A stretch of 38,745 nucleotides of DNA from a virus, in the IMG/VR virus record IMGVR_UViG_3300020428_000032, positions 1 to 38,745 of that record; one strand, given 5' to 3'. Below are positions 8,294-35,636 of the stretch, in pieces. The position numbers were made by a program, and so were the translations under genes. Under the pieces are notes generated by a model that worked only from the letters and a program-made list of their open reading frames with translations, made no database searches and had not been told where the DNA came from. Positions within the stretch are counted from its first letter, which is position 1; every line of letters starts with the position of its first letter.

Positions 8294-11200
8294 ATGTCGT
8301 CAACAGATAGGCAGTCAAGATTATTAGTATCTGAGGACTGGAAAAGAATTTATCAATCGTTTAGAAACGCAGACTTCCAGAGTTACGATTTTGATAATCT
8401 CCGCCGCACGATGGTTAATTACCTTCGACAAAACTATCCTGAAGATTTTAACGACTATATTGAATCTTCAGAATACTTAGCCCTTATCGACATGATTGCG
8501 TTCTTAGGACAAAATCTAAGTTTTCGTATTGATTTAAATGCTAGAGAAAATTTTCTAGAAACAGCTGAACGCAGAGAAAGCATTTTGCGTTTAGCACGTA
8601 TGCTATCATATAATCCAAGAAGAAATCAACCAGCTAACGGAGTATTAAAACTAGCCACTATCAAAACCACAGAGGCAATTATTGATAGTACAGGACAAAA
8701 TTTAGCTAATGTTGTAATCAAATGGAACGATCAAGCTAACACAAGTTATTTTGAACAAATACTTAAAATACTTAATTCGGCATTACCTGTTACTAACCAA
8801 ATTGGAAATCCGTTAAAAAGTGCGAGCATAGCAAATGTAATAACCCAACAATATAGATTTAATGCAACTAATACAAGTTCAGCAATATTTCCGTTTACAA
8901 AACGTATTGAAGGTGTAAGCACTAGATTTGAGGTTGTGAGTGCAGGAATAAGTGGCGAAAATATTATAGAAGAACCACCAATTCCTGGAAATAGTCCGGG
9001 ATTTTTATTCCGTGACGACGGACAAGGAGCAGGCAGCTCAAACACAGGATTTTTTATGTACTTTAAACAAGGAAAATTAGATAGTTCTCCTTTTAGTGTA
9101 TCTAATCCTACACCTAATCAATCAGTTGCGATTGATGTAACAAATATAAATGATACTGATTTATGGTTGTATAATGTTGATGCTAACGGTTTTGAAACTG
9201 ATTTTTGGACAAAAATAGATACTGTTGAAGGAAACAATATAATTTACAATAATTTATTTGAAGGTATTAAAAATGTTTATGCTGTAACTACTAGAGTTGG
9301 GGATAGAGTAAACTTAGTATTTTCAGACGGAGTTTTCGGCAACTTACCTTCGGGTAACTTTAAAGTATATTATCGTGCTAGTGCTAATGCAGGAAGTGTT
9401 ATTACACCCGGAGCAATGGGGAATGTTAATATTGAAATACCCTACCAAAGTAAAACAGGAAGTTTAGAAACATTGTCTTTAGGTTTTAAATTAAATTATA
9501 CTGTAACTAATTCAAGTGCAAGTGAGACAAATGAAGAAATAAAATCAAATGCTCCTGCTACATATTACACACAGAATAGACTTATTACAGGAGAAGATTA
9601 CAATATAGGTCCATTAGCAATTAGTCAAGAAATTATAAAAACAAAAAGCACTAATAGAATTAGCAGTGGTATAAGTAGATATTTTGATCTTAAAGATGTT
9701 TCAGGAAAATACAGTAATACAAGTTTATTTGCAGATGATGGCGTTTTATATAAAGAAATATTTTTAGAAAAAAGCCAATTTACATTTACAACCCAAAGTG
9801 ATATCGAAGGTATTATCAACAATACTGTAGAACCTATTTTATCATCTAGCTATACCAAAAACTTTTACCTAGATCAATTTGCTAAAACTATTGTGTCTGA
9901 TCTAAATGCTAAGTGGACACAACAAACAACATCAACTAATCAGTCAACTGGCAGATTTTTAGATAGCACAGATACACCTTATATGACTGGTACATTTACT
10001 GCAAATAGTTTAAGATTTATTGAACCAGGAGCAATGTGTAGATTCACAGCCCCAACAGGATTTCATTTTATGACAGATGGAACATTAATGTCGGGTTCAG
10101 CAGACCACTTAGGTTCCGCTACATATAAATGGGCTAAAGTAGTGTCAGTAGACGGCAACGGAACTGTAGTAAATGCTGTAAATGCAAAAGGTCCGATTAT
10201 TTTTAATGATAATATTCCTACTAATGCAATCTTAGATAGAATAGTACCTAACTTTAGTAGAATTTTAGTTGATTCTGTTAAAGTCCAAATGATTGACCAA
10301 GCATTTGCTTATAAAGATTTTGGATTAAGATATGATTTATCAGACAGGCAATGGAAAATAGTTACTTCCGAAAACATTAATACTACGTTAGGATTTTCGA
10401 CAGGAAAAACAGGTGATACCACAGGACAAAATCTAGACTCAAGTTGGTTGCTATATTTTAAAACTGACGGAGAAACTTATACTATTACGTACCGTAATTT
10501 AAGATATGTAATAGAAAGTTCTGATGAAATTAGATTTTATTTTGACGGAGTTGATAAAGTTTATAATCCAGCAACAGGAAAAATTGTAAGAGACAAAATT
10601 GATATATTAAACATTAATACAAAACCAGGAAGTACGTCACCGTTTACAAATGATTATTCTTGGACAATATCAGGAGCATACAGAGATCCTGATGGATATG
10701 TTGATTCGAGGAAAATAGAAGTACAATTTATTGATTTAGATGATGACGGCGCAGTTGATGATCCGGAAATATTTGAACAAATAGTTGATCCAGAGAACAC
10801 TACTATTCCAATAGCACAAAGATTAGCATTCCAAAAAAAGTACACAACTTCAGATGGTGTAGAAGATTTTAAGTATTTTGCAAATAGTAATAACACTATT
10901 ACTATTGTTACTAATGAAGCTGAAATAGCACCTTTTAGTGCCAGAACCGAAGGACAAATATTTTATCTACAAGATGAAAAAGTATTTAAAACACTAAACA
11001 AGGCTCTTAATAATACTACACCTAATACTGATTATAGAGCATATACTGGGCGTGGAGGGCTAAAATTCCATTATACACACGTTGCTGATAGTAGCTACAG
11101 AATTGATCCAAGTGCAAGTAACATTATTGACACTTATTTGCTCACTAAAACATACGATAATAACATACGAAGATTTGTTGCAGGAGAAATTGAAGTAAAA

Positions 11201-11887
11201 CCACTACCCCAAAGTAATGATGAGTTATTTAGAAGTTATGGATCTGAGATAAACAAAATTAAAAGCATTAGTGACGAAGTTATATATTATCCTGCAAAGT
11301 ATAAAATATTATTTGGATCAAAAGCCCCGGCGGATTTACAAGTGAAATTTAAAATTGTTAAAAATAAAGACATTGTAACAAATGACAATGAATTAAAGTC
11401 AGATATTGTTGAAGCAATTAATAGATTTTTTGCTATAGATAATTGGGATTTTGGCGAAACCTTTTACTTTCAAGAGTTAAGTGCATATATAATGACAGAG
11501 TTGTCACCAAAATTATCATCAGTATTAATTGTTCCTAATCAAGGATCCTTGTCATTCGGTAGTTTGTTTGAAATAAAATCAGAACCAGATGAAATTTTTA
11601 TTAGTGCAGCAACCGTAGGAGATATTGAAACTATAACTGAAATAACAGCTAAAGAAATTCAAGCAAGTGGCAAAGTAATATCTAGTATTGCGTCAGCTAG
11701 TACAACAAGTATAACAAGCTCAGCTTCGTCTGCATCGATTGCAACAACAGGCGGCGGATTAGTTACTTCAACTAGCAGTTCAAGTAGTTCAAGTTCAAGC
11801 AGTTCAAGTTCAAGCAGTTCAAGCAGTTCAAGTTCAAGTGGATCTAGCGGATCAAGTGGTTCTAGCGGTGGAGGCTATGGCTATTAA
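8294..11887 (+). CDS. 6: baseplate wedge protein gp6, extended, with serine-rich tail
   Basis: A 1197-residue baseplate wedge protein that would form the ring of wedge dimers around the hub together with gp25 and gp53. Residues 25-125 are a clear gp6 N-terminus: FQSYDFDNLRRTMVNYLRQN, YIESSEYLALIDMIAFLGQN, then FLETAERRESILRLARMLSY. Residues about 350-400 contain a baseplate-J-like beta segment (GVFGNLPSGNFKVYYRASAN). Residues about 1000-1110 (FKIVKNKDIVTNDNELKSDI, WDFGETFYFQELSAYI) match the usual C-terminal dimerisation-type region. T4 gp6 is 660 aa, so about 500 residues are inserted in the middle and at the end. The last 40 residues are a run of 22 Ser, three GSS units and GGGYGY. The stop overlaps the next start by one base, coupling it to the giant protein. 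Confidence 0.92.
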   Translation: MSSTDRQSRLLVSEDWKRIYQSFRNADFQSYDFDNLRRTMVNYLRQNYPEDFNDYIESSEYLALIDMIAFLGQNLSFRIDLNARENFLETAERRESILRLARMLSYNPRRNQPANGVLKLATIKTTEAIIDSTGQNLANVVIKWNDQANTSYFEQILKILNSALPVTNQIGNPLKSASIANVITQQYRFNATNTSSAIFPFTKRIEGVSTRFEVVSAGISGENIIEEPPIPGNSPGFLFRDDGQGAGSSNTGFFMYFKQGKLDSSPFSVSNPTPNQSVAIDVTNINDTDLWLYNVDANGFETDFWTKIDTVEGNNIIYNNLFEGIKNVYAVTTRVGDRVNLVFSDGVFGNLPSGNFKVYYRASANAGSVITPGAMGNVNIEIPYQSKTGSLETLSLGFKLNYTVTNSSASETNEEIKSNAPATYYTQNRLITGEDYNIGPLAISQEIIKTKSTNRISSGISRYFDLKDVSGKYSNTSLFADDGVLYKEIFLEKSQFTFTTQSDIEGIINNTVEPILSSSYTKNFYLDQFAKTIVSDLNAKWTQQTTSTNQSTGRFLDSTDTPYMTGTFTANSLRFIEPGAMCRFTAPTGFHFMTDGTLMSGSADHLGSATYKWAKVVSVDGNGTVVNAVNAKGPIIFNDNIPTNAILDRIVPNFSRILVDSVKVQMIDQAFAYKDFGLRYDLSDRQWKIVTSENINTTLGFSTGKTGDTTGQNLDSSWLLYFKTDGETYTITYRNLRYVIESSDEIRFYFDGVDKVYNPATGKIVRDKIDILNINTKPGSTSPFTNDYSWTISGAYRDPDGYVDSRKIEVQFIDLDDDGAVDDPEIFEQIVDPENTTIPIAQRLAFQKKYTTSDGVEDFKYFANSNNTITIVTNEAEIAPFSARTEGQIFYLQDEKVFKTLNKALNNTTPNTDYRAYTGRGGLKFHYTHVADSSYRIDPSASNIIDTYLLTKTYDNNIRRFVAGEIEVKPLPQSNDELFRSYGSEINKIKSISDEVIYYPAKYKILFGSKAPADLQVKFKIVKNKDIVTNDNELKSDIVEAINRFFAIDNWDFGETFYFQELSAYIMTELSPKLSSVLIVPNQGSLSFGSLFEIKSEPDEIFISAATVGDIETITEITAKEIQASGKVISSIASASTTSITSSASSASIATTGGGLVTSTSSSSSSSSSSSSSSSSSSSSSSGSSGSSGSSGGGYGY
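11774..11839 (+). repeat. AGTTCA-type tandem repeat encoding a 22-serine run
   Basis: Residues 1161-1182 of gp6 are all serine, encoded by alternating AGT, TCA and AGC codons that form imperfect tandem hexamers (AGTTCA) and 9-mers (AGTTCAAGC). The region continues as GGATCTAGC-like Gly-Ser-Ser repeats to about 11874. Such repeats can change length in frame by polymerase slippage. The tract encodes a flexible tail at the end of a wedge protein; the tract itself is plain in the sequence, while its variability is inference. Confidence 0.85.
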
Positions 11888-14800
11888 TGGCATACGATAA
11901 ATTTCAAAACGAAAGCCCATTGCCAGCAGGCAAACAAGTTAAAAAACTAAGCGTAGACTTTTTACCGAAGTTTTTTAGGACCGAAGCCAACAGGAAGTTT
12001 TTGCAAGGGACAATGGATCAACTTATTGCACCAGGCGTTGCAGAAAAGTTGAGCGGATATATTGGTAGAAAAACAGCCAAAGCATATTCACCTAAAGATA
12101 ATTATATAGGCGACTTTACTGAGGAGAGAGAAAACTATCAATTAGAACCAGCTGCTGTAATAAAAGATAATTTAGATAATGTTACTTTTTATAAAGATTA
12201 TAATGATTACATCAACCAGTTAGGCGTTTTTGGATCAAATAATAAAAACCATAGTAGATTAAATAATCAAGATACATATGCATGGAACCCTAATATTGAT
12301 TGGGATAAGTTTGTTAATTTTAGAGAATATTATTGGCTACCTAACGGACCAACTTCTGTTGCTGTAAGAGGACAAAGTAAAGAAGTTGTTAGTACCTATA
12401 CTGTAACACTAAAAGACAATACAGATAATATTTCCTATATCTTTAATGACGGGTTAACATCTAACCCAACTATAAAACTATATAAAGGACAAACTTACAG
12501 ATTTGAAATTGACACTCCGGGGCACCCAATTGCGTTTAGCATATCAAGGACATTTACTCCTGGTTCAGCAGTATTAACAGCTGGTTCAGAAGGTTTACGA
12601 GGAGATGGTCAGTTTGATGGAACTCTATATGGTAATAATTATGACCAAGGTGAATATGTTGTATTGCCTAGTAGTGGTTCGGTAACATTTGAAGCAGACG
12701 AAAACATAAGCACTTTATATCCAACAGGTATTACAAAGTATGGGGAAGCAGGAGAAGTAATTTCTGTAGTGTATGTAGATAAAGGTACTATTGAATTTAC
12801 TGTACCTGAAAATGCTCCTGATAGACTTTACTATATTAGTAAAAATAATATTGATACTAGCGGACTTATTAAAATTTATGATATTGCAGAAAATAGTGCA
12901 ATTAATGTTACTGACGAAATTATAGGCAAAAAAAATTATACAAGTGCTAACGGAGTTACACTTTCAAACGGAATGAAATTAACATTCCAAGGAGAAGTAA
13001 CACCTACGAAATATGACGACAGTCAATGGTATGTTGAAGGCGTAGGTAGTCAAATTAAATTAATTAATAGTAAAGATTTAATTATTCCTGCTGCTTATAC
13101 AGAATCTAAATTAATTCCTTTTGATACTGATAAATTTGACGAACTACCTTTTGCAGATGCAAAAGCGTATGCTACAAATAAAGATTATATCACTGTAAAC
13201 AGAGGAAGTAATGACCGTAATGCATGGAGTCGATATAATTGTTGGTATCATAAAGATGTGATACTTGCAAGCGAAACATATAATAGCTTACCTACTAGTT
13301 TAGACGAGACAGCTAGAGCCAAACGTCCTATTGTTGAATTTGAAGCAGGATTGAAACTGAATAATTTTGGTGTTTTTGCAAAAGATGATGTTGACTTAGT
13401 TGATGTATTTACAAAAGATGTGTTTAGTACAATCGAAGGCTCGTCAGGATATAACATTGATGGTATAGATCTTGCTGAGGGCATGCGTATATTGTTTATA
13501 GCTGACACAGATATTTTAGTAAGTGGAAAAATTTATAAAGTTAAATTTATTACTGTTAATAGTAAAAGACAAATTAGTCTTATGGAAGTAGCAGATTCAA
13601 TACCACAAAATTTAGAAACAGTTTTAGTTACACAAGGCGAAAAGTATGCTGGAACAAGCTTTCATTACAATAGTACCAAATGGGTACAGTCACAACAAAA
13701 AACAGCAAACAATCAGCACCCTATGTTTGAAGTCTTTGATGCAAACGCAAATAGTTTTAGTGATACAACCTACTATGGGTCTACAACTTTTATAGGCTCT
13801 AAGATATTTTCTTATAAGCAAGGTACAGGAACAAATGACAGTGAATTAGGGTTTCCTCTATCATATAGGGCAATTACAAATTCAGGTGATATTGTTTTTA
13901 ACTTTGACTTGCTAAATGACGAATTTACTTATCAAACAGAAACAGAAATATTTACTCAAAAAATTGATGCAGGTTATTTGAAAAAATATAAGTCTTTGAC
14001 AGATTTTAGTTATGTAAATGGCTTCAGTAGTATTCCAACATCTACTAGGCAAATGGTTATTAAGCAGTACGATGTTACAGATATTTTTAATAATAATTTT
14101 GAAATTAGTGCATATAAAAACGCTGGCAATTTAAACGACTTAACTGCATATGTATATGTTGATGACAACCTAAAATTTATTAATACTGATTATGTTATTG
14201 ACAGAACTAACGGATTTGCAAAAGTAATATTTAATAAAAATCTTACTGCGGGTCAATATGTTACAATTAAAACAAATAGTTTAGCTGAAAAAATTGATGG
14301 ATATTATGAATTTCCACACAATTTAGAAAGAAATCCTCTTAATGAAGATATTACCGAGTTTACATTAGGAGAAACAATCGATCATGTTAATAGCATGATA
14401 GAAGATGTACAAGATTTTGCTGGTGTATTCCCTGGTAGAAGTAATTTAAGAGATACAGGAGAACTAGACCATTTTGGAAAAAGATTTGTAAAACATAGCG
14501 GACCTATAAATCTTCCATTATACCATATTACAAATAAAAACTTTAATATAGTTAAAGCATTAAAATATTCGAAAAACGAGTATTCTAGATTTAAGCGTAA
14601 TTTTTTAGACAAAGCAGAAAAATTAGGATTCGACGGTCCTGTTAAGAAGCATGTTGATAAAATACTTACAGAATTAAATAAAGAAAAAGTTAAAACCGAA
14701 CCGTTTTATTTCTCTGATATGTTAGCTTATGGTGATGCTAATAAATTAGAATACACAGTTCTTGACACTAGAACAACAACATATCCTATTACAGATCCTT

Positions 14801-17800
14801 TTAACTTAACATCATTAAGTGCAAAAAGTATTGCTGTATATTTAAATGGTATACAATTAACACATAATAAAGATTATACTTTTAATACAGATGGTTATAT
14901 AGAAATAACTTGCACAAAGTTTGTAGATGATATTATAGAAATATATGAATATGAATCTACAGACGGAAGCTTTGTTCCTGCAACACCTACTAAAACAGGA
15001 TTATATCCAAAGTATTATCCAGAGCTGACTATTGATGATAGTTTTATAGCAAAAAAACCTACAGGAACAGGACCATTTAAAGTTTATGGTAGAACCGAAC
15101 AAACAACTAAATCATTCAAAGGAAAAATAGGTTGGTTTTATCCTCTTTATACTTCTAAAGAAGCCGCAATTGCAGCTGATTCTGATTCTAGTAATGACAC
15201 AGGATCTGCTCACATGCATGTGTTTGAAGGACTATCACAAGTATTTTATATGCCAGATACACAAATGAATCATGCAACAAATGATGATGCAACTATAGAT
15301 GAATATCCTGTTGGTGTTGCTATGATTAGAGGACATGACGGAAGTTATGTAAAGGCATATAAAGATTATAGAGATGAATTATTATTAGATTTTGAAAGAA
15401 GAATTTTTAATAATATTAAAGTTGAATATAGTACAGATTTATTAGATATACACGATTTCATAGGCGGAGAGTATAGGGCTTCAGAGTTTACTAAAAACGA
15501 AGTTGATAGCTCACTATTAAGTGATTTTATCCAATGGCTAAGATCTGTTAACGATGATTATACAGCTCATGATTTTCATGATGTAAATAATAGTTTTACT
15601 TTTAATTATTCTAGTGCAAAAACTACGCAAGGAAATGATCTTCCAGGTTTTTGGAGAGGAGCATATTTACATGCGTATGGCACAGATAGGCCAAACGCTA
15701 CTCCTTGGGAAATGTTAGGTTTTACTATGAAACCTATTTGGTGGGAAGACACGTATGGTAAAGCACCATACTCCGGAGACAACTTAGTATTATGGCGCGA
15801 CATTGAAGAAGGCAGAATTAAAAAACCGGGTGTAGCTGAAGTATTAAGTGCAAAATACGCTAGACCTGGGTTGACAAGACATATACCAGTTGATAGCCAG
15901 GGACGATTAAAGTCGCCGTTAGATAGTGGATTTGCAGAAAGCTTTTTGTCAAGACAATCGACTAATGGATTTAAATTTGGCGATGTTGCACCAGTAGAAA
16001 ATGCCTGGCGCCGGAGTTCAGAATTTCCATTTGCAGCATTAACAGCATATCTTTTAAACAAGCCTGCAAAGGTTATGGGATTAGGATTTGATGTTTCCCG
16101 TACTAAAAAGAATCTTGTAAAACAGTGGGTTTATTCTGATACAAATAAACCAATAAGAATTGCAGAAGCTAAACTTCCAAATACCTATAAAGATGATACA
16201 AGAGTATTAACATGCGGACTTGTAAACTATATCTACAATTTAGTATCTAGTGATGTACTAACTTTATATACAGACTACAAAAATAATTTACTAAATTTAA
16301 AAAATCAAATAGGTTTTAAAATTGGAGGATTTAGTGATACCCAAAAATTTAATTTAATACTTGACAGTAGATCTCCGACGCAACAAGTTGATCGAGACGG
16401 TGTTTTTGTGCCGCAGGAAAGTTTTAAAATTTTTACAAACACAAGTAGTCCACTAGAATTAGCTGTATACAGCGGAGTTGCAATAGAAAAAGCAGCCAAC
16501 GGATTTATTGTTAGAGGATATAATAATACATCTAGTAGTTTTGAATACTACAAACCTATTACAGGTTCTTCTAGTATAAATGTAACTGTTGGTGGAATAT
16601 CAGAAGAAACAGTTAATTTTAGATCTAACACACCATATGCAAAAGGTGTAGTAGTACAAGATAACTTTGACTTCTATAGAGTAACTAAAGACTTTACATC
16701 AGGAGAAGTATTTGATACTGAAAATTTAGTTAAATTAGTAGATTTACCTATTGTTGGAGGCAAAACAGCTGCATTTAAGCAAGACTTTGATCTTACTACT
16801 GTACATAAATTAGAATATGGTAAGCGTTTAGCAAATAGCCAAGAAGTTATTGATTTTATATTAGGTTATAATGCTAGATTGCAAGAAATTGGATTCTCAT
16901 TTAATGAAGTAAATCAAAATACCGAGACAGTAGAAAACTGGGACAATTCTTGTAGAGAATTTTTATTCTGGACAACACAAGGTTGGTCATCAGGCACAAT
17001 AATTACTCTTAGTCCTGCTGCAGAACAAGTGCAGTTTACTAAAGGATTTTCAGTTGTTGATAATTTAAATGACAACTTCTATGATTATAGCATATTCAAA
17101 GCAGACGGTCAACCTTTAGCTAATGAGTTTTATAGTTTTAACAGAGACGGTAATTCGTTTGCACTAGAAGCAAAAAATACAGATAGTGGAATTTATCACG
17201 TATCGTTACCGTTAGTGCAAAAAGAACATGTTGTCCTTTTAGAAAATAAAACATCATTTAGTGATATTATTTACGAACCAAAATCTGGATATAGACAAGA
17301 TCGTATAAAGGTAAGTGGCTATAGATCAGACGACTGGAACGGAGGACTAAATCTTCCAGGATTTATTTATGATGAAGCTAACATTACAGATTGGACACAA
17401 TGGAAAGATTATAAAATTGGTGAGCTAGTAAAGTATAAACAATTTTATTATGTAGCAAACACAAATATTCCAGGATCAAAAGATTTTAATTCTACGTTTT
17501 GGTATCAGCTTAGTAAAAAACCTGAACCTGAATTGCGGGCGAATTTAGATTATAAAGCAGCACAATTTACAGATTTTTATGATTTAGACTCAGACGGATT
17601 TGATAATGAGCAACAAAAATTAGCACAGCATTTGATAGGGTACCAAAAGCGTCAATATCTCGCTAATATTATTAATGATGATATAAGCCAGTTTAAGTTT
17701 TATCGAGGATATATTGCTGATAAAGGCACAATGAATGCACTTACTAAGTTGTTTGAATCTTTAGGAGATGGAACAACATCTGCATTAGATTTTTATGAAG

Positions 17801-20800
17801 AATGGGCAATACAAACAGGCAGGTACGGTGCTACTGAGTCAGTTCAACAAGTTGAATTTAATTTACAGGAAGATCAATTTACAGAAGCTCCACAGCCTTT
17901 TGAATTGGTTAATACTTTACCCGAAACTAATTTTGAGAATGTTTATAGAATACTACCTAAAGATGTATATGATAAACCTTTAGAATATGATCATGCTCCG
18001 TTTCCAACAAAGGTTATTTCGGAAAAAGATGAGTACATAAAAACAGGCGGTAATGTTAGTGAAGATGATGTGCAATTTGTTGTTGGGTCTATTTCAGAAC
18101 TATCTCTAGGAGATGTTAACACAGTATCTTTGGGTGATTATTTATGGGTTACTGAAAATGACAGAGATACTTGGCAAGTTTACCAGCTTATCCAAACATC
18201 TGCAAGAGTTACAGATGCAACACGTAGAACAGATATAGTTTCAACAGACGGATTAACCCTTATTGATTTAACTTTAGATCGTTGGGCAGATACAATTGGA
18301 GACAGCGTTGCTCCATTAGTAAAAACGACTGATTTAGTAGGTGTAAGAGGAGCTGATGAATTTAATTTAACAGGAATTTATGCTGTTAATGATGAAGGTA
18401 TTAACTTAAACAAAGTTACAGTAAAAACCCAAGCAAGCACACCTATTACTGATTTTACTGGACAGTCTTTTTCCTTAGTTAAATTACGTCCAGTTAGAGT
18501 AGAGTCTTTAGACTTATTAAACAAGAGCAGATATGAAGTATTAGAAAAACAGAAAGTTTGGGTTGATAGTTTAGATGGCGATTGGGGAGTAATTGAAAAC
18601 AATCCTGTGTTTAAAGAAAATCAAACCATGTTTAATCCTTCACAGTTTGATAGTACATCTCAGCAGTTTGGCAAAGTATTTACAGCAACACAAGATAATA
18701 CTAGTGTGTTTATAGGAGCACCTGGAGATGCTAACGGAAGAATACATTATTTTAGACGTACTAACGAAAAAAATAATTTAGTCCTCGATAATACCCTGGA
18801 ACTTGAATCATCAGAAGATCTTTTAGATCCTTCTACTGCTGAATTTGCGAAAAGTATTTCAGTTAGTCCTGATGGTGAATTTTTAGTAGTTGGAATGCCA
18901 GGAGCTTCAAATGTTAAAACTAAATTCAAAGGTGAGTTTGATAAAGCAGTTACTTACGCAAAGGGCGATATAATTAAGTATAGAGAAAGTTTGTGGAAAG
19001 CAAATAGAGAAATATTACCAGAAATATCTTCACAGCCGTTTACTACATTTGACACTTACGTAAATCTTGCAGCGTCAGCCGATGCTGACTCAACAACATT
19101 GCAACTTCTTGTTGCAGGCGATCCTGGATTATCAGGCAATACAACTGACCATTTGCTTATAAGAGCTCCTAAAGATATGTATTTAGGTACATCAGTCGGA
19201 GACACAATTAACTTATATTGGAATACTAGAAGTTATGCATATCCTACATTAGATAATTACGTTCCATTCGGCGGAGCAATAACTGAAATTACAGGAAATG
19301 TTATTACAGGAAGTCATATTATACAACACAAAGTAGATCATATTTTATTTGTATCTACATTTGTAACACTTCCAACTGTTGGACAAGTAGTTACAACTAC
19401 CACAGGTAGTGCAACAGTGTGCTATGTAGGTACTAAAGCAGATAGTGCAGTAGTATACCTTAAGGATACAAATGGTATCTTTAGTGTTAGTGATGAATTG
19501 TATATTGAAGAAGAAATATTTGTTGGATTTTATACAGAAACTTCAACATATAATACTAGCACAGCAGTAGATGGATTTTGGTTTATTAATACAGGATTTC
19601 AATATTCAAATGCTGGCACTTACTACGATACAGGCAGAGGCTTAGTTTATGCTGATGTAAGACTACAATCATCTGCAAGAGCGTTAAATACCTACTCAAA
19701 TATACAAAAAGCTGTAGGTTATATTGGTGCTTATGTTAAAAACAAAAATAGAGCAAGTTATATTACACACTTGTCTTATAGAGGTGATCCAGGCGGCGTA
19801 GAAGCAGATCAGCTCAGTAACAAGTGGATAGTAAGAGGTGATAAAGAGTTTACAGACACTCTTACTATAGGAGACACTACTGAGTTTAGATTATATAATC
19901 TTGATAATAGAGTTATTGATGTTGTAACTCCGGGATTTACGTATGACATATTTAACAAGCAACAAACTATAGTTGACTTGTGGGACGGTTATATTGACTT
20001 TACTTTTGATGAGTTTGACTTTAATGGTAATGTTTTTGAACCTGTAGTAGGTGATATAATCAGTGATGTACAATATCCAAACGATGGACAAGGCGGTCTA
20101 GCAATTACTACTCAAACTACTAGTACTGCTGAAGTTATGTTTTACCGTAGAAACTTTAACAGTGTAAGAGTTTATGTAAAAGCACTTACTGGCGACTGGT
20201 CAAAACAAAACAATATTGGAAAATACTCAATACAACGTGAAGCTAATACAACGGCACGTGGTGCAACCGACGTTGCACGTATAATGGGAACTGTAGCGGA
20301 TGTGGAAAATGATATCGCAGTTGGCACTACTACAGTAGGAAAATTAATAGTATTTGAACACAGTTCACAATTTAATGTTTCATCAAATCCTGAAATTATT
20401 GACGAAGAATATTGGTTCTTTAATGAAAATACAGAACAAGGAATTTCAAGATTACCTAATCCTCCATATAGTCTTAACAAAGATTATAAGCAAGTATATC
20501 ATATTTCTGCAGAAGCAACAGGCACACCAGGTCCAGGACAGGAAGGTGCAGTAGCAGTCTTTAGACGTAAGCCAGGAGGCATATACGAAAAACAATATGT
20601 TTTTGTATCAGAACATCGTAAAGCAAATAGAAGGTTTGGCAAAAAAGTAAAAATAGCACAAAAAGGAAATTATTATACTTTAGCAATATCCAGTGAAGGA
20701 CTTGGCACTCGTGACGATCCAGGAAGTATAGAATTTTTTAGACATGGGACCAAGCCAACTGAACAATTTCAAGGTTCATATCAAATAAGAAGTTATGACC

Positions 20801-23800
20801 CAGGTGACATTGTAATTTTCTTAGATCAATATTTTATATGTCTAAAGAAAACTAGTGCAGATGTACAAGATATTACAGATACTGAATATTGGGAAAATAT
20901 TAGCTGGAAGTACGGAAAAGATCCTGATTATAAAGGCGTTTGGGATAATACTTATAGGTATAACAAAGGATCTATTGTAAATTACAATAATACACTATAT
21001 AAAGCAAAAACTAATATTGCAGACAATGCAGCTTGGAATGCAACTAGTTGGGAAACGTTAACAGATAATATAGATTATACTGGTATGCTACCTAATAGAA
21101 CTAGTAACGCATTCTATGGAGAAAGTATATTTGATCCAATTCAAAACATAGATCAATTTAGTCAAGATTTTGATTTAAGTGCAGATGGTGATGTTTTAAT
21201 TACCACAAGTAAACAAGTTTTTACTGATAGTACACGTGATATTGCAGTAGTAGTGTATAGAGAAAATGGTGATAAATTCCAGTTCTCACAAAAAATTACA
21301 AACGCTAATACAGAAACCGGATGGGGCGACAAAGTAGCTTTGCATCCAGATGGAACAAGAATTGCAGTAAGTATTCCATTACTTGACCAAGTAAAAGCAA
21401 ATCAAGGTGCAGTGATTATCTATCAACAAGATACTAATGGTGTGTTTGGTACTGTAGTTGATCAAACCTTAGGGATTACAAGTCCGACACAGACACTATT
21501 GCCACCGCAAAACGAAGAGTCGGAAAAATATGGATATGAATTAAATTTTGGAAAAGATCATTTAGTTGTTGCTAGTTTAAATGGTGATCAGCAAATACCT
21601 ACAAGATTTGATACTTTCGAAGATTTACTACCAACAACTGGTGTTGAAGGCGGATCAAGATATGTACTTGATATTAATAGTACAATGAAAGAAGTTGCAA
21701 CAACATTTGATAAAAGCTTTACATCATTTAAGAATGTTAAAATGGATAAAGGCGTAGTGTATGTTTATGAAACATTAGGAGCTAACTTAATTCAGTCAGA
21801 GACGTTTACTTATCCTTTAACAATGACATCATTTGGTGAGCATTTATTTACACAAGATAATCATATATATGTTGGTATGCCACAGCAGTGGGGAGATGAT
21901 AGCACTACTATAGGTGATACTAGAGGTGCAGTAGTAGATTTTAGAAAGCCTTCTGGGGACAAAGCATGGAAGCAAATACGCAGAAGTGTTGCTCCAGTAG
22001 ATGTAGATAAAATAGCAGGAGCATTTTTATATAATAAACGCAACAATCAACTTATAACATATGTAGATTTTATTGATCCTGTACAAGGAAAAGTTGCAGG
22101 TATTGCAGAACAAGAAATAGATTATAAAGTTAAGTACGATCCTGCTTTTTATAACACAGGACAACTAGCAGATAATAATGTTGATCCTAACAGACATTGG
22201 GCCGAAAAATATGTAGGACGAGTATGGTGGAATATTAATAGTGCTAGGTTTGCTCATGCATATCAAGGCACAACAAACTTCCAAAAAAATACTTGGAATA
22301 CACAAATTGGTGACTCAGCTATAAATATTTACGAATGGGTTGAAAGTCCCTTCTTACCAGAAACTTGGGATAGTTTAGCTGATACTGCCCCTGGACTGAA
22401 ACGTGGTATAAGTGGTGTAAGTTTACACGGAAATACAAAATATACTACCAGGTTAGTATATGACCAGATTAGCAAAACTTTTAATAATCTATATTACTTC
22501 TGGGTAGAAAACAAAAAAACTATTCCGTCTGTTTCTCATAGATCTATAAGTTTAAAAAATATTGCAGCTTTAGTAGGCGATCCTGCAGGACAAAAATATA
22601 GATATTTAAGTTTTCTTTCAAAAGATAAATTTATGCTAACAAATTGTAATGATTTAATAAAAAATGATGACATCGTTTTAAATATTAAATTTACTAAAGA
22701 CTCGATAGAAAAACAACGTCAAAATAGTCATAATCAGTATCAAATACTTACTAAAGGATTAGAAACAAGTGTTGTTAATTCAGATATAGAGAAGAAATGG
22801 TTTGATAGTTTAGTTGGATTTGATTTACAGCAACGTGCAGTACCAGATACAAATGTTCCTGTTAGAAGTAGATACGGTGTACAAAACAGACCAAGACAAA
22901 GCATGTTTGTAAACAGAGCAGAAGCTTTAAAACAAACAATAGAAAGAATTAATGTAGTTTGTAAACAAAATCTACTTGCTGACGAATACGATCTTAACGA
23001 ACTTAATAAAGTAGAACCATTACCTACTTTACTAAGCGGAGAATATGATCATAAAGTTAGTACTTTCGAAGAAATAAGTCTTATTAGTACAAGCAAAATA
23101 ACACCTGCAAAATTAACACCTGTAGTACAAAACGGAAAAATTACAAATGTTATTATTGACGATACTGGTAGAGGATATAAATTTGTTCCAAAACTTACAC
23201 TTACTGGTGTAGGAAAAGATGCTGAGTTTGAAATTGAAATAGACACATTAGGAAAAATAACATCAGTTAAAATTTTAAATCAAGGTACTGGATACGATAA
23301 CAATACTAGAATTAGTGTAAGAAGATTTACAGTCTTAGTTGAGGCAGACAGTACAGTATTTAACAAATGGTCAATGTACGGTTGGAATGAGACTGAAGGT
23401 GTTTGGTTTAGAAGAAGTATACAAGACTATGACGTAACACAGTTTTGGAGTTACATTGATTGGTACGAAGATGGATATAATCAATTTACAGAAGTAGATG
23501 ATATTATTGATGGATCGTATTTGCTTACTAGTCTTGATAATAGGATCGGTGAAGTAGTTAAAATTACATCTGTAGGAACAGGTGGATGGTTGCTTTTAGA
23601 AAAAATAGCTGATGAAGACACGGAAGATTATACAGTAAACTATAAAACTATAGGTAGACAAAACGGTACAGTTCAATTTAATGATAAGCTATATGATTAT
23701 AGTAAAAATACAGTAGGATTTGATAACAGAAGTTTTGATAGCTACTTTTATGATAATACGCCGACTACAGAACTACGTATTATTATAAATGCAATTAAAA

Positions 23801-26800
23801 ATAATATTTTTGTAGGTACACTTGCAATAGAATACAATGAACTATTTTTTGCAACAATACGCTATGTGCTTGCTGAGCAAGCAGGTGCTGATTGGGTATT
23901 TAAAACTAGTTTTGTAAAAGCTAAACATAATTTAGGTCCGTTATATCAAGATAAAACTTTTAATAACAATAACCTTGCAAATTATGAATCTTATATAAAC
24001 GAAGTAAAACCTTATACAACAAATGTAAGAGAATTTATTAGTAACTATTCAAATATAGAACCAACAAATTCAACAGTAAGTGATTTTGATTTACCACCAG
24101 AATATAGTAAAGAATCAAAGTCTATAGTACCAAGTAAAGCTCAAGTAATTGATGGAGTTATAGTAAGTGCTCCTAATAGTGCGTCTGTGTATCCAAGAAA
24201 GCATTGGACGGAAAATAACGGATATCAAATTAAGGACATTGTAATTTCTGATCCAGGATCAGAATATACATATCCACCTACAATTAAATTTACAAGTACT
24301 GTAGGTTCCGGTGCTACTGCAAAAGCCTATATTGCATACGGTAAAATTACTAAAATAGAATTAACAAATGCAGGCTCTGGATATACAGTAGCCCCAACAG
24401 TAGTAATTGAAGGACCACAAGGTGAAACTGGCACGAAAGCAAAAGCTACAGCTATACTAGGAAATGGTGTTGTTAGAAGTCCTTATATTATTACTAAGTT
24501 TGATAGAGTATCGGGCAAAGTTTTTTATACAGCATTAATTGAAAACTATTATGATACTGGTACAGGTATTAAAACAGTTTACGATTTAAAATGGCCAATG
24601 GACTTGTCGTCGACAAAAGTAAAAGTTTATGTTGGTAAAGATAATGATTCATTAGTAGAACAACTAAGAAGTCAATATAGTTACGAAAATATTATTGACA
24701 CAACAAAATCGTATACTAGACAGCAAGGTCGTGTAACATTTACAACTCCTCCTGCTAATAACTCTGTAATTAAAATAGAATATTACAAGCCGTTAAGCTT
24801 ATTAACAGCAGAAGATAGAATAAATTTTGCTTACAATCCAACATCAGAAATGTACGGCAAAGATTTATCACAATTAATGACAGGTATTGATTATGGCGGA
24901 GTGCAAGTACGTAGTTTTGAATTTGATCAAGCATCGGGCTGGGATAGTAATGGTTGGTATACTGATAGTTGGGACACTTACGATAATACCTTTGAAGATC
25001 AAATATTTACATCAGACGGATCTACAAATGCTGTAATTTTAACTTCACCATTAGAAAATGGAATAATGTATAACTTTTATAGAAATGGTATTAGAATAGA
25101 TGATCCTAATTATGATGCAAGCACAGCTATTACTAATCCTACAGCGATAACAAATTCTATAATTGGAGATGGGACAACACAAGTTCTTGATTTAGAAGTA
25201 ATGGGTGTACGCTTATTAGACGGCGATATCTTTATTGTAAGAAAAACTACCAGTGATGGAAGTGTTCTTCCAGACGCTGATAGTTATGATACTGCATTGT
25301 CGGGTGGTGATCTTGCTTATAAAACAGCAACAGGAATTAAATCAGAAGATATTATTGTTGACGGCGACGGATTTGTTACACCGACAACAAGTGGCGGCCC
25401 GGAAGAATTAGTTCCAGGACAAGTACTTGACACTGTTGATATTAAAGTGTTTACAAGGGATAGTAACGGCCAAGGACAAATATACAGTCAAAGTTATATT
25501 ATGGATAGTAATACAACATACGGGTTAGGAGTTATACCTAAAACTGCACCAGCAATAATTGTAAAAGTTAATAATATTATTTTAGGTGATACAGAATATA
25601 CTATCGACTGGAATAATAACAATGTTACTATTCATACAGCAACTCCTGGTGCTGAACTTAATATAATCGCAATGGCACAAGGAGTACAAAAACTACTTGA
25701 TTTTGGACAAGGAGTGTCAGTGGCTGGACAGTCTGACTATTTAACTACAGTTGATTGGCAAAAAGACACTAGTGTTTTTGTAAGTGTTAACGGTGTTGCT
25801 ACAGATGTAGAAATATTTAATAGCGAAGACAGCGGTGCTCCTATTGCTAAGGTTGGAATTAGATTTAAAACACCAAGAGCTATCAGCGGAGAAAAAATAC
25901 ACTACTCTGTGTTTAGCGATGCAACAAAAGTAAATTATAGCCAGGTTAGTAAAGATAGCTTTACAGCAGATGGAACTACCCGTGCTTTTGATTTAGCAAC
26001 TGCTCCTTTTTATGCTAAACCTAATCAACACAATATAATTGTTAAAGTTGGAAACAAGATACTTAACCCAGGTTATAATATTCAACATACAGTAGAAGAT
26101 GGAAACAGAGAGTATAAAATTGAAACATATCAGCAATCAGTAGGTGCTAACTCTGCGTCTGATGTTAGAGTTTTTGTAGCAGGCGTGGAAAAGTTTACAC
26201 CAAATGAATGGAGATTTGACATTGCAAACAGTCAAATTGTACTTTCAGATGAAACTGGTTTAAACGGAGATACTGTAGAAATATTTGCAATCACAGATGG
26301 TGAATATACTATCACAGGAAATACTGTAACTTTAGATACTGCACCTACGGAAAATACAAAAATAGAAATACTGCAATTTAGTAATCATGATTTACTAGGA
26401 ATAGAACGTATGAACTATGATGTTGTATCTAGAACATTACTACTATCAGAAGAAGTTGAACAAATTAATGACTATGCTAGATTAACAACTGGAGAAATTA
26501 AACTTAGGAAAAAAGCAGTCGATGCACAGTATGTTTGGGTAAGTGTAAATGGAGAACTACTTACTCCAAGCGTAGATTACTTTGTTACAGATGATCAAAT
26601 GAAAATACAGCTTGTACGCACTCCTAATCAAAACGATGTAATTGATATTATACATTTTGCTGAAAAAGTAAGTACGGCTAAGTTTGCTTATAGACAATTT
26701 AAAGATATGCTTAATAGAACACACTTCAAACGTTTAGACAAAGAAGCCACTACGTTGCGTGAGCCTCTTAACAGTTATGATTTAAGAATTGAAGTTGTTG

Positions 26801-27378
26801 ACGGTAGTTCATTATCAGAACCAAGTAAAGGACAAAATTTACCAGGTATTTTGTTTATAGGTAATGAACGTATTGAATATTTTGTTAAAGAAGGAAACAC
26901 GTTAAAACAATTACGTAGAGGAACTTTAGGCACTGGAGTAAAAGACACGTATCCAGTTACACAAAAAGTTTATGATCAAAATATAAGTAAGACAGTACCC
27001 TATAGAGATATGACACAAAGTCAAAGCTTTAATGGAAATGGAACAACGTCTACATTTACATTAGGGTTCGACGTAGGTACAATAAATGAAATAGAAGTGT
27101 TTGTTGCAGGAAAACGTTTAAGAAAAACAACTTTAGAGTCATTTAGTTTAACAAAGGACCTTGATAGTCCAGAAGGTGATGTAACTTTACCAAAAGAATT
27201 TGAATTCGATCAAGACTCAAATTCAATTACATTAGCTGATATACCTTTAGATAAAACCAAGGTTACAGTAGTTAAAAAGACTGGTCAAACATGGACAAAT
27301 GCAGGAGAAAAACTAGGAGACGCTGAAAATTCGATAGCACGATTCTTGCGAGCAGGAACTTCGGCGCTACCAGAATAA
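11887..27378 (+). CDS. giant 5163-aa baseplate/tail structural protein (gp7 position)
   Basis: A single uninterrupted frame of 15.5 kb. The N-terminus (residues 1-150: VDFLPKFFRTEANRKFLQGT, then YIGDFTEERENYQLEP and IDWDKFVNFREYYWLPNG) looks like the conserved head of very large structural proteins in marine T4-like phages, and it would anchor the protein in the baseplate. Visible modules follow. Residues about 175-335 are cupredoxin-like. Residues about 745-1000 hold beta units such as SIAVYLNGIQLTHNKDYTF. Five short 'Y..G..V' modules lie near 1584, 1842, 2355, 2970 and 3023. Seven FG-GAP-like blades lie between 2259 and 3360. 'GSGYT' repeats lie at about 3749-3812 and 4115-4180. From about 4550 to the end are repeated 'VFV.VNG' beta modules. 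No signal peptide or coiled coil stands out. Following gp6 with a 1-nt overlap it takes the place of T4 gp7 (1032 aa). No separate gp8-gp11 genes are visible, so it may also replace outer wedge parts; that is inference. Confidence 0.75.
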   Translation: MAYDKFQNESPLPAGKQVKKLSVDFLPKFFRTEANRKFLQGTMDQLIAPGVAEKLSGYIGRKTAKAYSPKDNYIGDFTEERENYQLEPAAVIKDNLDNVTFYKDYNDYINQLGVFGSNNKNHSRLNNQDTYAWNPNIDWDKFVNFREYYWLPNGPTSVAVRGQSKEVVSTYTVTLKDNTDNISYIFNDGLTSNPTIKLYKGQTYRFEIDTPGHPIAFSISRTFTPGSAVLTAGSEGLRGDGQFDGTLYGNNYDQGEYVVLPSSGSVTFEADENISTLYPTGITKYGEAGEVISVVYVDKGTIEFTVPENAPDRLYYISKNNIDTSGLIKIYDIAENSAINVTDEIIGKKNYTSANGVTLSNGMKLTFQGEVTPTKYDDSQWYVEGVGSQIKLINSKDLIIPAAYTESKLIPFDTDKFDELPFADAKAYATNKDYITVNRGSNDRNAWSRYNCWYHKDVILASETYNSLPTSLDETARAKRPIVEFEAGLKLNNFGVFAKDDVDLVDVFTKDVFSTIEGSSGYNIDGIDLAEGMRILFIADTDILVSGKIYKVKFITVNSKRQISLMEVADSIPQNLETVLVTQGEKYAGTSFHYNSTKWVQSQQKTANNQHPMFEVFDANANSFSDTTYYGSTTFIGSKIFSYKQGTGTNDSELGFPLSYRAITNSGDIVFNFDLLNDEFTYQTETEIFTQKIDAGYLKKYKSLTDFSYVNGFSSIPTSTRQMVIKQYDVTDIFNNNFEISAYKNAGNLNDLTAYVYVDDNLKFINTDYVIDRTNGFAKVIFNKNLTAGQYVTIKTNSLAEKIDGYYEFPHNLERNPLNEDITEFTLGETIDHVNSMIEDVQDFAGVFPGRSNLRDTGELDHFGKRFVKHSGPINLPLYHITNKNFNIVKALKYSKNEYSRFKRNFLDKAEKLGFDGPVKKHVDKILTELNKEKVKTEPFYFSDMLAYGDANKLEYTVLDTRTTTYPITDPFNLTSLSAKSIAVYLNGIQLTHNKDYTFNTDGYIEITCTKFVDDIIEIYEYESTDGSFVPATPTKTGLYPKYYPELTIDDSFIAKKPTGTGPFKVYGRTEQTTKSFKGKIGWFYPLYTSKEAAIAADSDSSNDTGSAHMHVFEGLSQVFYMPDTQMNHATNDDATIDEYPVGVAMIRGHDGSYVKAYKDYRDELLLDFERRIFNNIKVEYSTDLLDIHDFIGGEYRASEFTKNEVDSSLLSDFIQWLRSVNDDYTAHDFHDVNNSFTFNYSSAKTTQGNDLPGFWRGAYLHAYGTDRPNATPWEMLGFTMKPIWWEDTYGKAPYSGDNLVLWRDIEEGRIKKPGVAEVLSAKYARPGLTRHIPVDSQGRLKSPLDSGFAESFLSRQSTNGFKFGDVAPVENAWRRSSEFPFAALTAYLLNKPAKVMGLGFDVSRTKKNLVKQWVYSDTNKPIRIAEAKLPNTYKDDTRVLTCGLVNYIYNLVSSDVLTLYTDYKNNLLNLKNQIGFKIGGFSDTQKFNLILDSRSPTQQVDRDGVFVPQESFKIFTNTSSPLELAVYSGVAIEKAANGFIVRGYNNTSSSFEYYKPITGSSSINVTVGGISEETVNFRSNTPYAKGVVVQDNFDFYRVTKDFTSGEVFDTENLVKLVDLPIVGGKTAAFKQDFDLTTVHKLEYGKRLANSQEVIDFILGYNARLQEIGFSFNEVNQNTETVENWDNSCREFLFWTTQGWSSGTIITLSPAAEQVQFTKGFSVVDNLNDNFYDYSIFKADGQPLANEFYSFNRDGNSFALEAKNTDSGIYHVSLPLVQKEHVVLLENKTSFSDIIYEPKSGYRQDRIKVSGYRSDDWNGGLNLPGFIYDEANITDWTQWKDYKIGELVKYKQFYYVANTNIPGSKDFNSTFWYQLSKKPEPELRANLDYKAAQFTDFYDLDSDGFDNEQQKLAQHLIGYQKRQYLANIINDDISQFKFYRGYIADKGTMNALTKLFESLGDGTTSALDFYEEWAIQTGRYGATESVQQVEFNLQEDQFTEAPQPFELVNTLPETNFENVYRILPKDVYDKPLEYDHAPFPTKVISEKDEYIKTGGNVSEDDVQFVVGSISELSLGDVNTVSLGDYLWVTENDRDTWQVYQLIQTSARVTDATRRTDIVSTDGLTLIDLTLDRWADTIGDSVAPLVKTTDLVGVRGADEFNLTGIYAVNDEGINLNKVTVKTQASTPITDFTGQSFSLVKLRPVRVESLDLLNKSRYEVLEKQKVWVDSLDGDWGVIENNPVFKENQTMFNPSQFDSTSQQFGKVFTATQDNTSVFIGAPGDANGRIHYFRRTNEKNNLVLDNTLELESSEDLLDPSTAEFAKSISVSPDGEFLVVGMPGASNVKTKFKGEFDKAVTYAKGDIIKYRESLWKANREILPEISSQPFTTFDTYVNLAASADADSTTLQLLVAGDPGLSGNTTDHLLIRAPKDMYLGTSVGDTINLYWNTRSYAYPTLDNYVPFGGAITEITGNVITGSHIIQHKVDHILFVSTFVTLPTVGQVVTTTTGSATVCYVGTKADSAVVYLKDTNGIFSVSDELYIEEEIFVGFYTETSTYNTSTAVDGFWFINTGFQYSNAGTYYDTGRGLVYADVRLQSSARALNTYSNIQKAVGYIGAYVKNKNRASYITHLSYRGDPGGVEADQLSNKWIVRGDKEFTDTLTIGDTTEFRLYNLDNRVIDVVTPGFTYDIFNKQQTIVDLWDGYIDFTFDEFDFNGNVFEPVVGDIISDVQYPNDGQGGLAITTQTTSTAEVMFYRRNFNSVRVYVKALTGDWSKQNNIGKYSIQREANTTARGATDVARIMGTVADVENDIAVGTTTVGKLIVFEHSSQFNVSSNPEIIDEEYWFFNENTEQGISRLPNPPYSLNKDYKQVYHISAEATGTPGPGQEGAVAVFRRKPGGIYEKQYVFVSEHRKANRRFGKKVKIAQKGNYYTLAISSEGLGTRDDPGSIEFFRHGTKPTEQFQGSYQIRSYDPGDIVIFLDQYFICLKKTSADVQDITDTEYWENISWKYGKDPDYKGVWDNTYRYNKGSIVNYNNTLYKAKTNIADNAAWNATSWETLTDNIDYTGMLPNRTSNAFYGESIFDPIQNIDQFSQDFDLSADGDVLITTSKQVFTDSTRDIAVVVYRENGDKFQFSQKITNANTETGWGDKVALHPDGTRIAVSIPLLDQVKANQGAVIIYQQDTNGVFGTVVDQTLGITSPTQTLLPPQNEESEKYGYELNFGKDHLVVASLNGDQQIPTRFDTFEDLLPTTGVEGGSRYVLDINSTMKEVATTFDKSFTSFKNVKMDKGVVYVYETLGANLIQSETFTYPLTMTSFGEHLFTQDNHIYVGMPQQWGDDSTTIGDTRGAVVDFRKPSGDKAWKQIRRSVAPVDVDKIAGAFLYNKRNNQLITYVDFIDPVQGKVAGIAEQEIDYKVKYDPAFYNTGQLADNNVDPNRHWAEKYVGRVWWNINSARFAHAYQGTTNFQKNTWNTQIGDSAINIYEWVESPFLPETWDSLADTAPGLKRGISGVSLHGNTKYTTRLVYDQISKTFNNLYYFWVENKKTIPSVSHRSISLKNIAALVGDPAGQKYRYLSFLSKDKFMLTNCNDLIKNDDIVLNIKFTKDSIEKQRQNSHNQYQILTKGLETSVVNSDIEKKWFDSLVGFDLQQRAVPDTNVPVRSRYGVQNRPRQSMFVNRAEALKQTIERINVVCKQNLLADEYDLNELNKVEPLPTLLSGEYDHKVSTFEEISLISTSKITPAKLTPVVQNGKITNVIIDDTGRGYKFVPKLTLTGVGKDAEFEIEIDTLGKITSVKILNQGTGYDNNTRISVRRFTVLVEADSTVFNKWSMYGWNETEGVWFRRSIQDYDVTQFWSYIDWYEDGYNQFTEVDDIIDGSYLLTSLDNRIGEVVKITSVGTGGWLLLEKIADEDTEDYTVNYKTIGRQNGTVQFNDKLYDYSKNTVGFDNRSFDSYFYDNTPTTELRIIINAIKNNIFVGTLAIEYNELFFATIRYVLAEQAGADWVFKTSFVKAKHNLGPLYQDKTFNNNNLANYESYINEVKPYTTNVREFISNYSNIEPTNSTVSDFDLPPEYSKESKSIVPSKAQVIDGVIVSAPNSASVYPRKHWTENNGYQIKDIVISDPGSEYTYPPTIKFTSTVGSGATAKAYIAYGKITKIELTNAGSGYTVAPTVVIEGPQGETGTKAKATAILGNGVVRSPYIITKFDRVSGKVFYTALIENYYDTGTGIKTVYDLKWPMDLSSTKVKVYVGKDNDSLVEQLRSQYSYENIIDTTKSYTRQQGRVTFTTPPANNSVIKIEYYKPLSLLTAEDRINFAYNPTSEMYGKDLSQLMTGIDYGGVQVRSFEFDQASGWDSNGWYTDSWDTYDNTFEDQIFTSDGSTNAVILTSPLENGIMYNFYRNGIRIDDPNYDASTAITNPTAITNSIIGDGTTQVLDLEVMGVRLLDGDIFIVRKTTSDGSVLPDADSYDTALSGGDLAYKTATGIKSEDIIVDGDGFVTPTTSGGPEELVPGQVLDTVDIKVFTRDSNGQGQIYSQSYIMDSNTTYGLGVIPKTAPAIIVKVNNIILGDTEYTIDWNNNNVTIHTATPGAELNIIAMAQGVQKLLDFGQGVSVAGQSDYLTTVDWQKDTSVFVSVNGVATDVEIFNSEDSGAPIAKVGIRFKTPRAISGEKIHYSVFSDATKVNYSQVSKDSFTADGTTRAFDLATAPFYAKPNQHNIIVKVGNKILNPGYNIQHTVEDGNREYKIETYQQSVGANSASDVRVFVAGVEKFTPNEWRFDIANSQIVLSDETGLNGDTVEIFAITDGEYTITGNTVTLDTAPTENTKIEILQFSNHDLLGIERMNYDVVSRTLLLSEEVEQINDYARLTTGEIKLRKKAVDAQYVWVSVNGELLTPSVDYFVTDDQMKIQLVRTPNQNDVIDIIHFAEKVSTAKFAYRQFKDMLNRTHFKRLDKEATTLREPLNSYDLRIEVVDGSSLSEPSKGQNLPGILFIGNERIEYFVKEGNTLKQLRRGTLGTGVKDTYPVTQKVYDQNISKTVPYRDMTQSQSFNGNGTTSTFTLGFDVGTINEIEVFVAGKRLRKTTLESFSLTKDLDSPEGDVTLPKEFEFDQDSNSITLADIPLDKTKVTVVKKTGQTWTNAGEKLGDAENSIARFLRAGTSALPE

Positions 27379-27397: not shown

Positions 27398-28000
27398 ATG
27401 AGTGATAATATGCAAGATAAAAACGGAGTACTAGTTCAAGGTCATATAAAAATATTTGACCCAAAAACTGAGGAAATATTTGTAGATAAACGTAATGCGA
27501 TTCATTATGAAAATATGAGTATTGCGTTAGCTGAAAGTTTAAGTAACGCTGGAGCAGGATTTATATACGAAATGAGCTTCGGTAATGGCGGCACAAGTGT
27601 TGACCCAACTGGTATTATTACATATCTTACTCCTAACAGTACAGGTACAAACGCTGGTCTTTATAATCAGACGTATACAAAGGTTGTTGATGAAAAAAGT
27701 GTAAACAATACAGACTCAGCACGTAATAAAACCGAAATTAGACATGTAAGTGGTACAAACTATACAGATATTCTTGTAAGTTGTTTGTTAGATTACGGAG
27801 AGCCTAGCGGCCAAGATGCGTTTGATACTGCATCAAACACAGATAATTCTTATGTTTTTGACGAGTTAGGCCTTAGAAGTTATAGTGCTAGTGGAACAGG
27901 TAGACTTATTACGCATGTAATATTTCATCCAGTACAAAAATCATTGAACAGATTAATACAAATTGACTATACTGTTCGAGTACAGAGTTTAGCGGGATAA
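27398..28000 (+). CDS. conserved-type virion protein of unknown role, 200 aa
   Basis: A 200-residue protein without a family I can name. It opens with NGVLVQGHIKIFDPKTEEIF and KRNAIHYENMSIALAESLSN, a pattern I associate with small structural proteins of marine T4-like phages. A Gly-rich turn region (FGNGGTSVDPTG) follows, and residues 105-200 are beta-rich, closing with HVIFHPVQKSLNRLIQIDYT. The sequence does not resemble T4 gp8, although the gene lies where wedge proteins gp8-gp11 might be expected. It may be a connector between the giant baseplate protein and the fibres encoded next. Start codon choice is supported by AGGAAA, seven nt upstream. Confidence 0.65.
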   Translation: MSDNMQDKNGVLVQGHIKIFDPKTEEIFVDKRNAIHYENMSIALAESLSNAGAGFIYEMSFGNGGTSVDPTGIITYLTPNSTGTNAGLYNQTYTKVVDEKSVNNTDSARNKTEIRHVSGTNYTDILVSCLLDYGEPSGQDAFDTASNTDNSYVFDELGLRSYSASGTGRLITHVIFHPVQKSLNRLIQIDYTVRVQSLAG

Positions 28001-31934: not shown

Positions 31935-31950
31935 ACAGTCATGAGAAACG

Positions 31951-31957: not shown

Positions 31958-31989
31958 ACATAAGTACAGTACTATTAGGGGTTACATAA

Positions 31990-35589: not shown

Positions 35590-35611
35590 AAAATGCTCTG
35601 GTTATCATTCG

Positions 35612-35618: not shown

Positions 35619-35636
35619 TACTAGAGAGGTCGTTTA

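Follow-up and report, generated by a model that had tools for sequence, protein, structure and literature searches.

The 5163-residue product of a single gene in the analysed stretch of viral DNA (38.7 kb, hereafter the window) is probably the third chain in the baseplate wedge of a contractile tail, standing in the place of T4 gp7 and carrying added modules; a probability of about 0.6 was assigned to this reading. By profile, the protein (hereafter the giant) is a large member of a known, widespread and uncharacterised jumbo-phage family, PHROG 10938, which is annotated merely as "virion structural" or "hypothetical" protein. The assignment as a gp7 analogue was drawn from four observations: a coupling to gp6 and gp25 that is preserved in distant jumbo phages, the presence of homologues in virions, the annotation of cyanophage proteins at the same place, also giant, as gp7 or wedge initiator, and a core that was the best window against the gp7 core and is kept in jumbo giants.

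In the proposed arrangement, one copy would be present per wedge and would join two gp6-like chains through a core at residues ~1885-2030. The rest of the chain, mostly beta-rich modules together with small CBM-like ones, would extend outward and serve as a scaffold for the docking of fibre proteins, which are encoded by separate genes.

An intact gene of a jumbo-phage family

The gene occupies positions 11887-27378 on the plus strand, starts with ATG and encodes 5163 aa (579.9 kDa) in 15.5 kb; its ATG overlaps the stop codon of the gp6 gene by one base (TAATG). The original prediction had described one uninterrupted frame of this length, and this was borne out, as the coordinates proved exact and full-length relatives were open as well. 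At this base composition, an open frame this long would occur by chance with a probability of ~10^-187. Homologues of 5265, 5261, 5261 and 5140 aa were observed in four independent contigs from other metagenomes, each as a single open frame throughout, and identity to full-length relatives was ~72-75%. Among the nearest relatives, codon position 3 varied about three times as often as position 2 in nearly every 500-codon block; all parts of the giant are constrained by purifying selection.

An assembly artefact, either a chimaera or an error, was also considered as the source of the giant frame. The frame is split in two relatives (L120 and L124), which indicates that errors or frameshifts do occur in such contigs, and the window itself offers no support for an artefact. 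Independent assemblies nevertheless yield full-length relatives and purifying selection extends from end to end, by which this explanation was refuted and its likelihood reduced practically to nil. In the two exceptional loci, the giant is divided into two overlapping frames (L120 18903-18928 and L124 5952-6064), as a result of either a frameshift or an assembly error.

Four consecutive segments of the giant matched the PHROG 10938 profile with E-values of 1e-108, 2e-129, 5e-51 and 1e-24, covering model positions 17-2478 of 3324 in order. The N-terminal part gave tblastn matches in 57 phage records, which were jumbo phages or fragments thereof, and at least 594 IMG/VR stretches encode the core. 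Among named phages, homologue lengths were 4449 aa in Atu_ph07, 3857 in PA5oct, 3326 in RaK2, 3771 in Vibrio 2.275, 4555 in Phosso, 3340 in CBB, 3323 in 121Q and 3807 in SCTP-2. The member of this family is the largest baseplate-region chain in several of the cultured jumbo phages.

The upstream neighbours of the giant are all on the plus strand. A small baseplate wedge subunit in the gp53 position (990-1289, phrog_7145) is followed by a gp5-like hub spike with a VgrG3-like C-terminal domain (5319-7784; PF21277, E = 2e-31), a gp25-like wedge/sheath initiator (7800-8237; phrog_261 and phrog_43) and a gp6-like baseplate wedge protein of 1197 aa (8294-11887), which matched PHROG baseplate wedge families and the T4 gp6 profile (E = 5e-5). 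These matches agree with the earlier placement of the giant directly after gp6, with gp25 and gp6 upstream. Among the 72 environmental loci having enough upstream sequence, gp6 was directly upstream of the giant in 71 and gp25 was present in all 72. The order of gp6 followed by the giant was also found in Atu_ph07, PA5oct, RaK2, Vibrio 2.275, Phosso, CBB and 121Q; the exception was SCTP-2, in which gp6 is located elsewhere.

Virion association of homologues and a possible likeness to gp7

Both the place after gp6 and the presence in virions are established for relatives of the giant. For PA5oct, detection of the homologue by ESI-MS/MS is noted in its record. CBB_236, the gene adjoining gp6 of CBB, was detected in CBB virions with 21 peptides (PMC5259590), and phAPEC6 gp245 (381.88 kDa) was detected in virions with 17 peptides, being listed after a baseplate wedge protein of 131.18 kDa (PMC7247149). 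Gene 582 of 121Q, a phage assigned to the same species as phAPEC6 (PMC7247149), encodes a protein of 381.87 kDa, which matches the mass of gp245, and 121Q gp6 is 131.2 kDa. The baseplate association that had been predicted is thus upheld by the nearly constant position of gp6 upstream and by mass spectrometry of homologues; absence from virions, named beforehand as a finding that would speak against it, was not encountered in PA5oct, CBB or phAPEC6.

The same data bear on whether the giant is a precursor that is cut into several mature baseplate proteins. Its large size is compatible with such processing, and the virion peptide coverage of the CBB and phAPEC6 homologues (7.6-7.7%) leaves room for cleavage. 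However, low coverage was also recorded there for further large virion proteins (e.g., 6.06% for CBB_226) and nothing positive speaks for cleavage, which was consequently regarded as very improbable.

The resemblance to gp7 itself is confined to a candidate core at residues 1885-2030 (17539-17976, plus strand). Its best conserved spot is the motif 'FYxGxIxxKGT', with KGT at residues 1946-1948, followed downstream by 'EEWA'. Across 101 sequences, no variation was observed at K and G in KGT or at E and W in EEWA. The KGT motif was kept in the jumbo giants examined, taking the form KGS in RaK2. Similar motifs occur in gp7 cores, namely DFYSTKGI in T4 (residue 734) and DFYSSKGT in cyanophages (~residue 216). 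When a profile of the T4 and cyanophage gp7 cores was compared with 101 overlapping windows of the giant, the windows containing the motif ranked first and second and were aligned motif on motif. The E-value of 0.0011 is to be read with the profile having been cut around a motif already noticed; it becomes ~0.1 after 101 windows, which is not significant, and spurious profile matches reached E-values of 0.002-0.008. The likeness of the KGT core to T4 and cyanophage gp7 is accordingly graded as suggestive.

Broader searches with gp7 and wedge families were negative. The T4 gp7 profile gave nothing above noise against the giant in 600-residue windows, and a candidate pairing of giant residues 2485-2550 with gp7 769-839 (probability 7%) was rejected, the region being variable and the score within noise. 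The Pfam family Gp7_helical was detected in T4, RB49 and K491 only and was not found in the window, the jumbo relatives or the cyanophages; no Pfam gp7 domain was found in the giant. Tail_P2_I matched neither the window nor the relatives, and the gp7 proteins of T4 and cyanophages were unmatched by it as well. The Baseplate_wedge families had no match in the window, and when five segment profiles and the core were searched against PDB sequences, no baseplate wedge relative was returned.

Structure prediction covered residues 1-1180 and 1850-2110 (1180 + 261 = 1441 residues), so that the segment-wise fold search proposed with the original prediction was carried out for these two parts. For residues 1850-2110, the predicted fold was of low confidence (pLDDT 64.5) and matched neither gp7 nor any other structure. 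For residues 1-1180, PDB matches arose mostly through a cupredoxin-like domain and no gp7 was listed; in a library of viral predicted structures, the best matches were unnamed proteins of uncultured phages and the Atu_ph07 homologue.

Modular structure and the baseplate periphery

According to alignment occupancy, the blocks that extend to distant jumbo phages comprise residues 1-200, 300-1000, 1150-2050 and 3330-4420, while residues 200-300 and ~2100-3330 are mostly limited to nearer relatives. Fold prediction was of low confidence for the N-terminal 120 residues and reached pLDDT values mostly of 80-90 in the conserved N-terminal core (residues 300-1000, 12784-14886, plus strand), which distant jumbo phages also possess. 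A predicted cupredoxin-like beta domain (residues 166-336, 12382-12894, plus strand) is present mainly in near relatives (Z 9.8, rmsd 2.5, 96 aligned residues). By eye, its copper-binding Cys/His/Met positions seem to be replaced (YYISKNNIDTSG), on which basis the domain is probably copper-free.

Small modules and repeats, all on the plus strand, are distributed along the remainder of the chain. Three CBM5/12-like modules were noted. The first lies at residues ~1583-1622 (16633-16752, limits approximate) and resembles the chitin-binding domain of chitinase A1 (E = 0.0071). The second, at residues 2351-2372 (18937-19002), matched PF02839 with E = 0.0027, and the third, at residues 3019-3052 (20941-21042), with E = 1.9e-4, both under the curated cut-off; the third also matched All3316 (PDB 7b5h, E = 0.0019). 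Residues 2255-3390 (18649-22056) contain repeats that follow an FG-GAP-like pattern and carry long inserts, as seen from motif listing and occupancy, and this region is mostly missing in distant relatives. It gives the impression, by eye, of a beta-propeller, and is left as an impression because Pfam FG-GAP_2 had no match in the window. Two copies of a 'GxITxVxIxNxGxGY' beta-repeat follow, at residues ~3746-3815 (23122-23331; cyanophage gp7 module, E = 3e-8, and Dpo31 tailspike, E = 5e-4) and ~4108-4181 (24208-24429; phrog_460, E = 2e-10, and phrog_19630, E = 2e-11); repeats of this kind also occur in a tailspike and in connectors. Pfam and PHROG segment scans of the giant yielded only PHROG 10938, one repeat module and weak CBM_5_12 matches, and an internal-repeat profile search, the setup of which was doubtful, yielded nothing.

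Such modules raise the question of whether the giant could be a fibre or adhesin whose gene simply happens to adjoin gp6 in an operon. The CBM-like modules, the occurrence of the beta-repeats in a tailspike and the weak structural similarity that parts of residues 1-1180 showed to cyanophage fibre proteins and connectors would all suit a protein of this type. In contrast, the coupling to gp6 is nearly invariant over very distant phages, and in cyanophages the corresponding place is filled by a gene annotated gp7. A fibre or adhesin was therefore considered rather unlikely, and a wedge chain with added modules was preferred.

Downstream of the giant, on the plus strand, lie a 200-aa conserved protein (27398-28000, phrog_11259) and three separate fibre-type genes. 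The phrog_11259 protein adjoins the giant in most relatives, whereas in RaK2 its homologue is encoded on the opposite strand, ~7 kb past the end of the giant; a comparison with gp8-gp12 gave no match for this protein. The first fibre gene (28012-30072) contains a T4 gp12-like C-terminal collar region (gp12 341-449, E = 3.8e-7) and is followed by the genes at 30069-31934 and 31990-33462. The products of these three consecutive genes (window 28012-33462) have an N-terminal domain of ~180 residues in common and unlike C-terminal parts, an arrangement reminiscent of alternative tips mounted on a single docking domain. Further downstream, the genes at 33475 and 35637 (window 33475-36578) are paralogous over ~300 N-terminal residues and had no PHROG match. 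Hence, the earlier statement that no genes resembling gp8-gp11 follow the giant holds in the window by profile, but adhesion genes are present there, as separate fibre-type genes.

Since the window is a fragment, covering 38.7 kb of an uncultured virus known as DNA alone, gene absence from the virus cannot be read from it and was tested in relatives instead. In six jumbo-phage relatives (five complete genomes and one partial), no member of the gp8 or gp11 families was found, and gp9/10 was not found above threshold, with sub-threshold matches in two of the six. Controls behaved as expected for T4-like phages, and two cyanophages were positive for gp8. In two environmental relatives, the initial 38-69 positions of the T4 gp9/10 N-terminal family were matched above threshold, in other, fibre-like large frames and not in the giant. 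In the records of these relatives, L122 (G004) and L121 (G005), several open reading frames, some of 1950-4015 aa, open with these gp9/10 N-terminal positions, and a gp9/10-like attachment domain may be spread over their fibre genes. At profile sensitivity, the predicted lack of gp8-gp11 genes is thus largely right for the family, apart from the short gp9/10 matches in the two environmental relatives; canonical gp8 and gp11, the discovery of which would have weakened the original prediction, did not appear in the relatives.

The interpretation originally attached to this lack took the giant to be a possible amalgam of the wedge scaffold and peripheral adhesion modules, with domains derived from gp7 and from gp8, gp10, gp9 or gp11 fused in one chain. 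It is large enough for such a fusion, and gp8 and gp11 are missing and gp9/10 sub-threshold at best in the six jumbo-phage records. However, profiles of gp8, gp9, gp10 and gp11 gave nothing above noise in 600-residue windows of the giant, its PDB sequence search had not returned any baseplate wedge protein, and the fibre genes remain separate downstream. A gp10 match near residues 977-1073 (12%) was within noise and was rejected. In addition, T4 gp9, gp10, gp11 and gp12 are trimers, gp8 is a dimer and gp7 is a monomer (PMC3004832), and therefore a single chain in each wedge could not provide the oligomers by simple fusion. On these sequence comparisons, with folds predicted for 1441 residues of the chain, the amalgam was given very little weight and, in its literal form, is unlikely; the missing gp8 and gp11 together with the virion association of homologues speak for loss or replacement rather than fusion.

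Replacement could have taken place without homology, such that the jobs done by gp8-gp11 in T4 would fall to new modules in the giant together with its 200-aa neighbour and the fibre proteins, in a baseplate with fewer kinds of parts. This proposal is compatible with the assignment of the giant as a gp7 analogue and goes beyond it. It would fit the T4 families missing by profile in jumbo relatives, the conservation of the large blocks 300-1000, 1150-2050 and 3330-4420 over jumbo phages, and the common N-terminal domain of the three downstream fibre proteins, which would be in keeping with docking at a single site. On the other hand, simple phages such as XM1 manage without the complex periphery of T4 and without a giant (PMC10457771), and divergent counterparts of gp8-gp11 could have escaped detection, since gp6 itself scored merely E = 5e-5. 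Non-homologous replacement was therefore regarded as a tentative possibility with the balance against it. It is likewise doubtful, though conceivable, that a half-megadalton chain in six copies per particle assumed, through unrelated modules, the functions that gp7, gp8 and the gp9-gp11 periphery have in T4; if true, the jumbo-phage baseplate has far fewer kinds of parts than that of T4.

Comparison with known systems

Giants of the RaK2, 121Q, CBB, PA5oct and Atu_ph07 type (PHROG 10938) represent the same gene at the same place after gp6, with ~25-37% identity to the window giant in several blocks, including the KGT core. They differ in length, jumbo-phage giants having 3,323-4,555 aa compared with ~5,140-5,265 aa in the clade of the window, which carries extra modules at residues ~200-300 and 2100-3330.

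Giant size and a place after gp6 are not new, being already known from cyanophages with up to 6,198 aa. The proteins following gp6 there include gp7 of P-HM2 (4454 aa), the wedge initiator of Bellamy (4067 aa) and a 4225-aa protein of ACG-2014f. In S-ShM2 (L242 3819-22415; record 61318-79914), a 6198-aa structural protein, larger than the window giant, lies directly after gp6, and a 573-aa gene annotated gp7 comes after it. The N-terminal part of cyanophage gp7 matched T4 gp7 727-878 by profile (E = 3e-6), which indicates that gp7 grew about fourfold in cyanophages. The giants of P-HM2, Bellamy and S-ShM2 resemble the window giant in lying directly after gp6, in similar or larger size and in a common beta-repeat module, but without overall sequence similarity. 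Moreover, the KGT core is near the N-terminus in cyanophage gp7 (~194-216) and at 1946 in the window giant, and P-HM2 and Bellamy retain a gp8-like gene.

T4 gp7 shares with the giant the place after gp6 and, as a suggestive likeness only, a possible common 'FYxxKG' core. In contrast, it has 1032 aa, is followed by separate gp8-gp11 genes and contains Pfam gp7 domains that are missing in the giant.

If the giant is the gp7 of jumbo phages, it offers one clear target for cryo-EM of the jumbo-phage baseplate, and the third wedge chain can exceed 5,000 residues through added modules. The chain that completes the (gp6)2-gp7 heterotrimer is 1032 aa long in T4, compared with 242 aa for gp17 of XM1 (PMC10457771; PMC6300606), and in XM1 this short gp7 counterpart carries the spikes (PMC10457771). 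XM1 gp17, P2 gpI and TssG resemble the giant in the proposed role as third chain of a gp6-like heterotrimer, whereas they differ from it in scale, with 242 aa in XM1 gp17 against 5163 aa, and in Tail_P2_I, to which the giant has no match.
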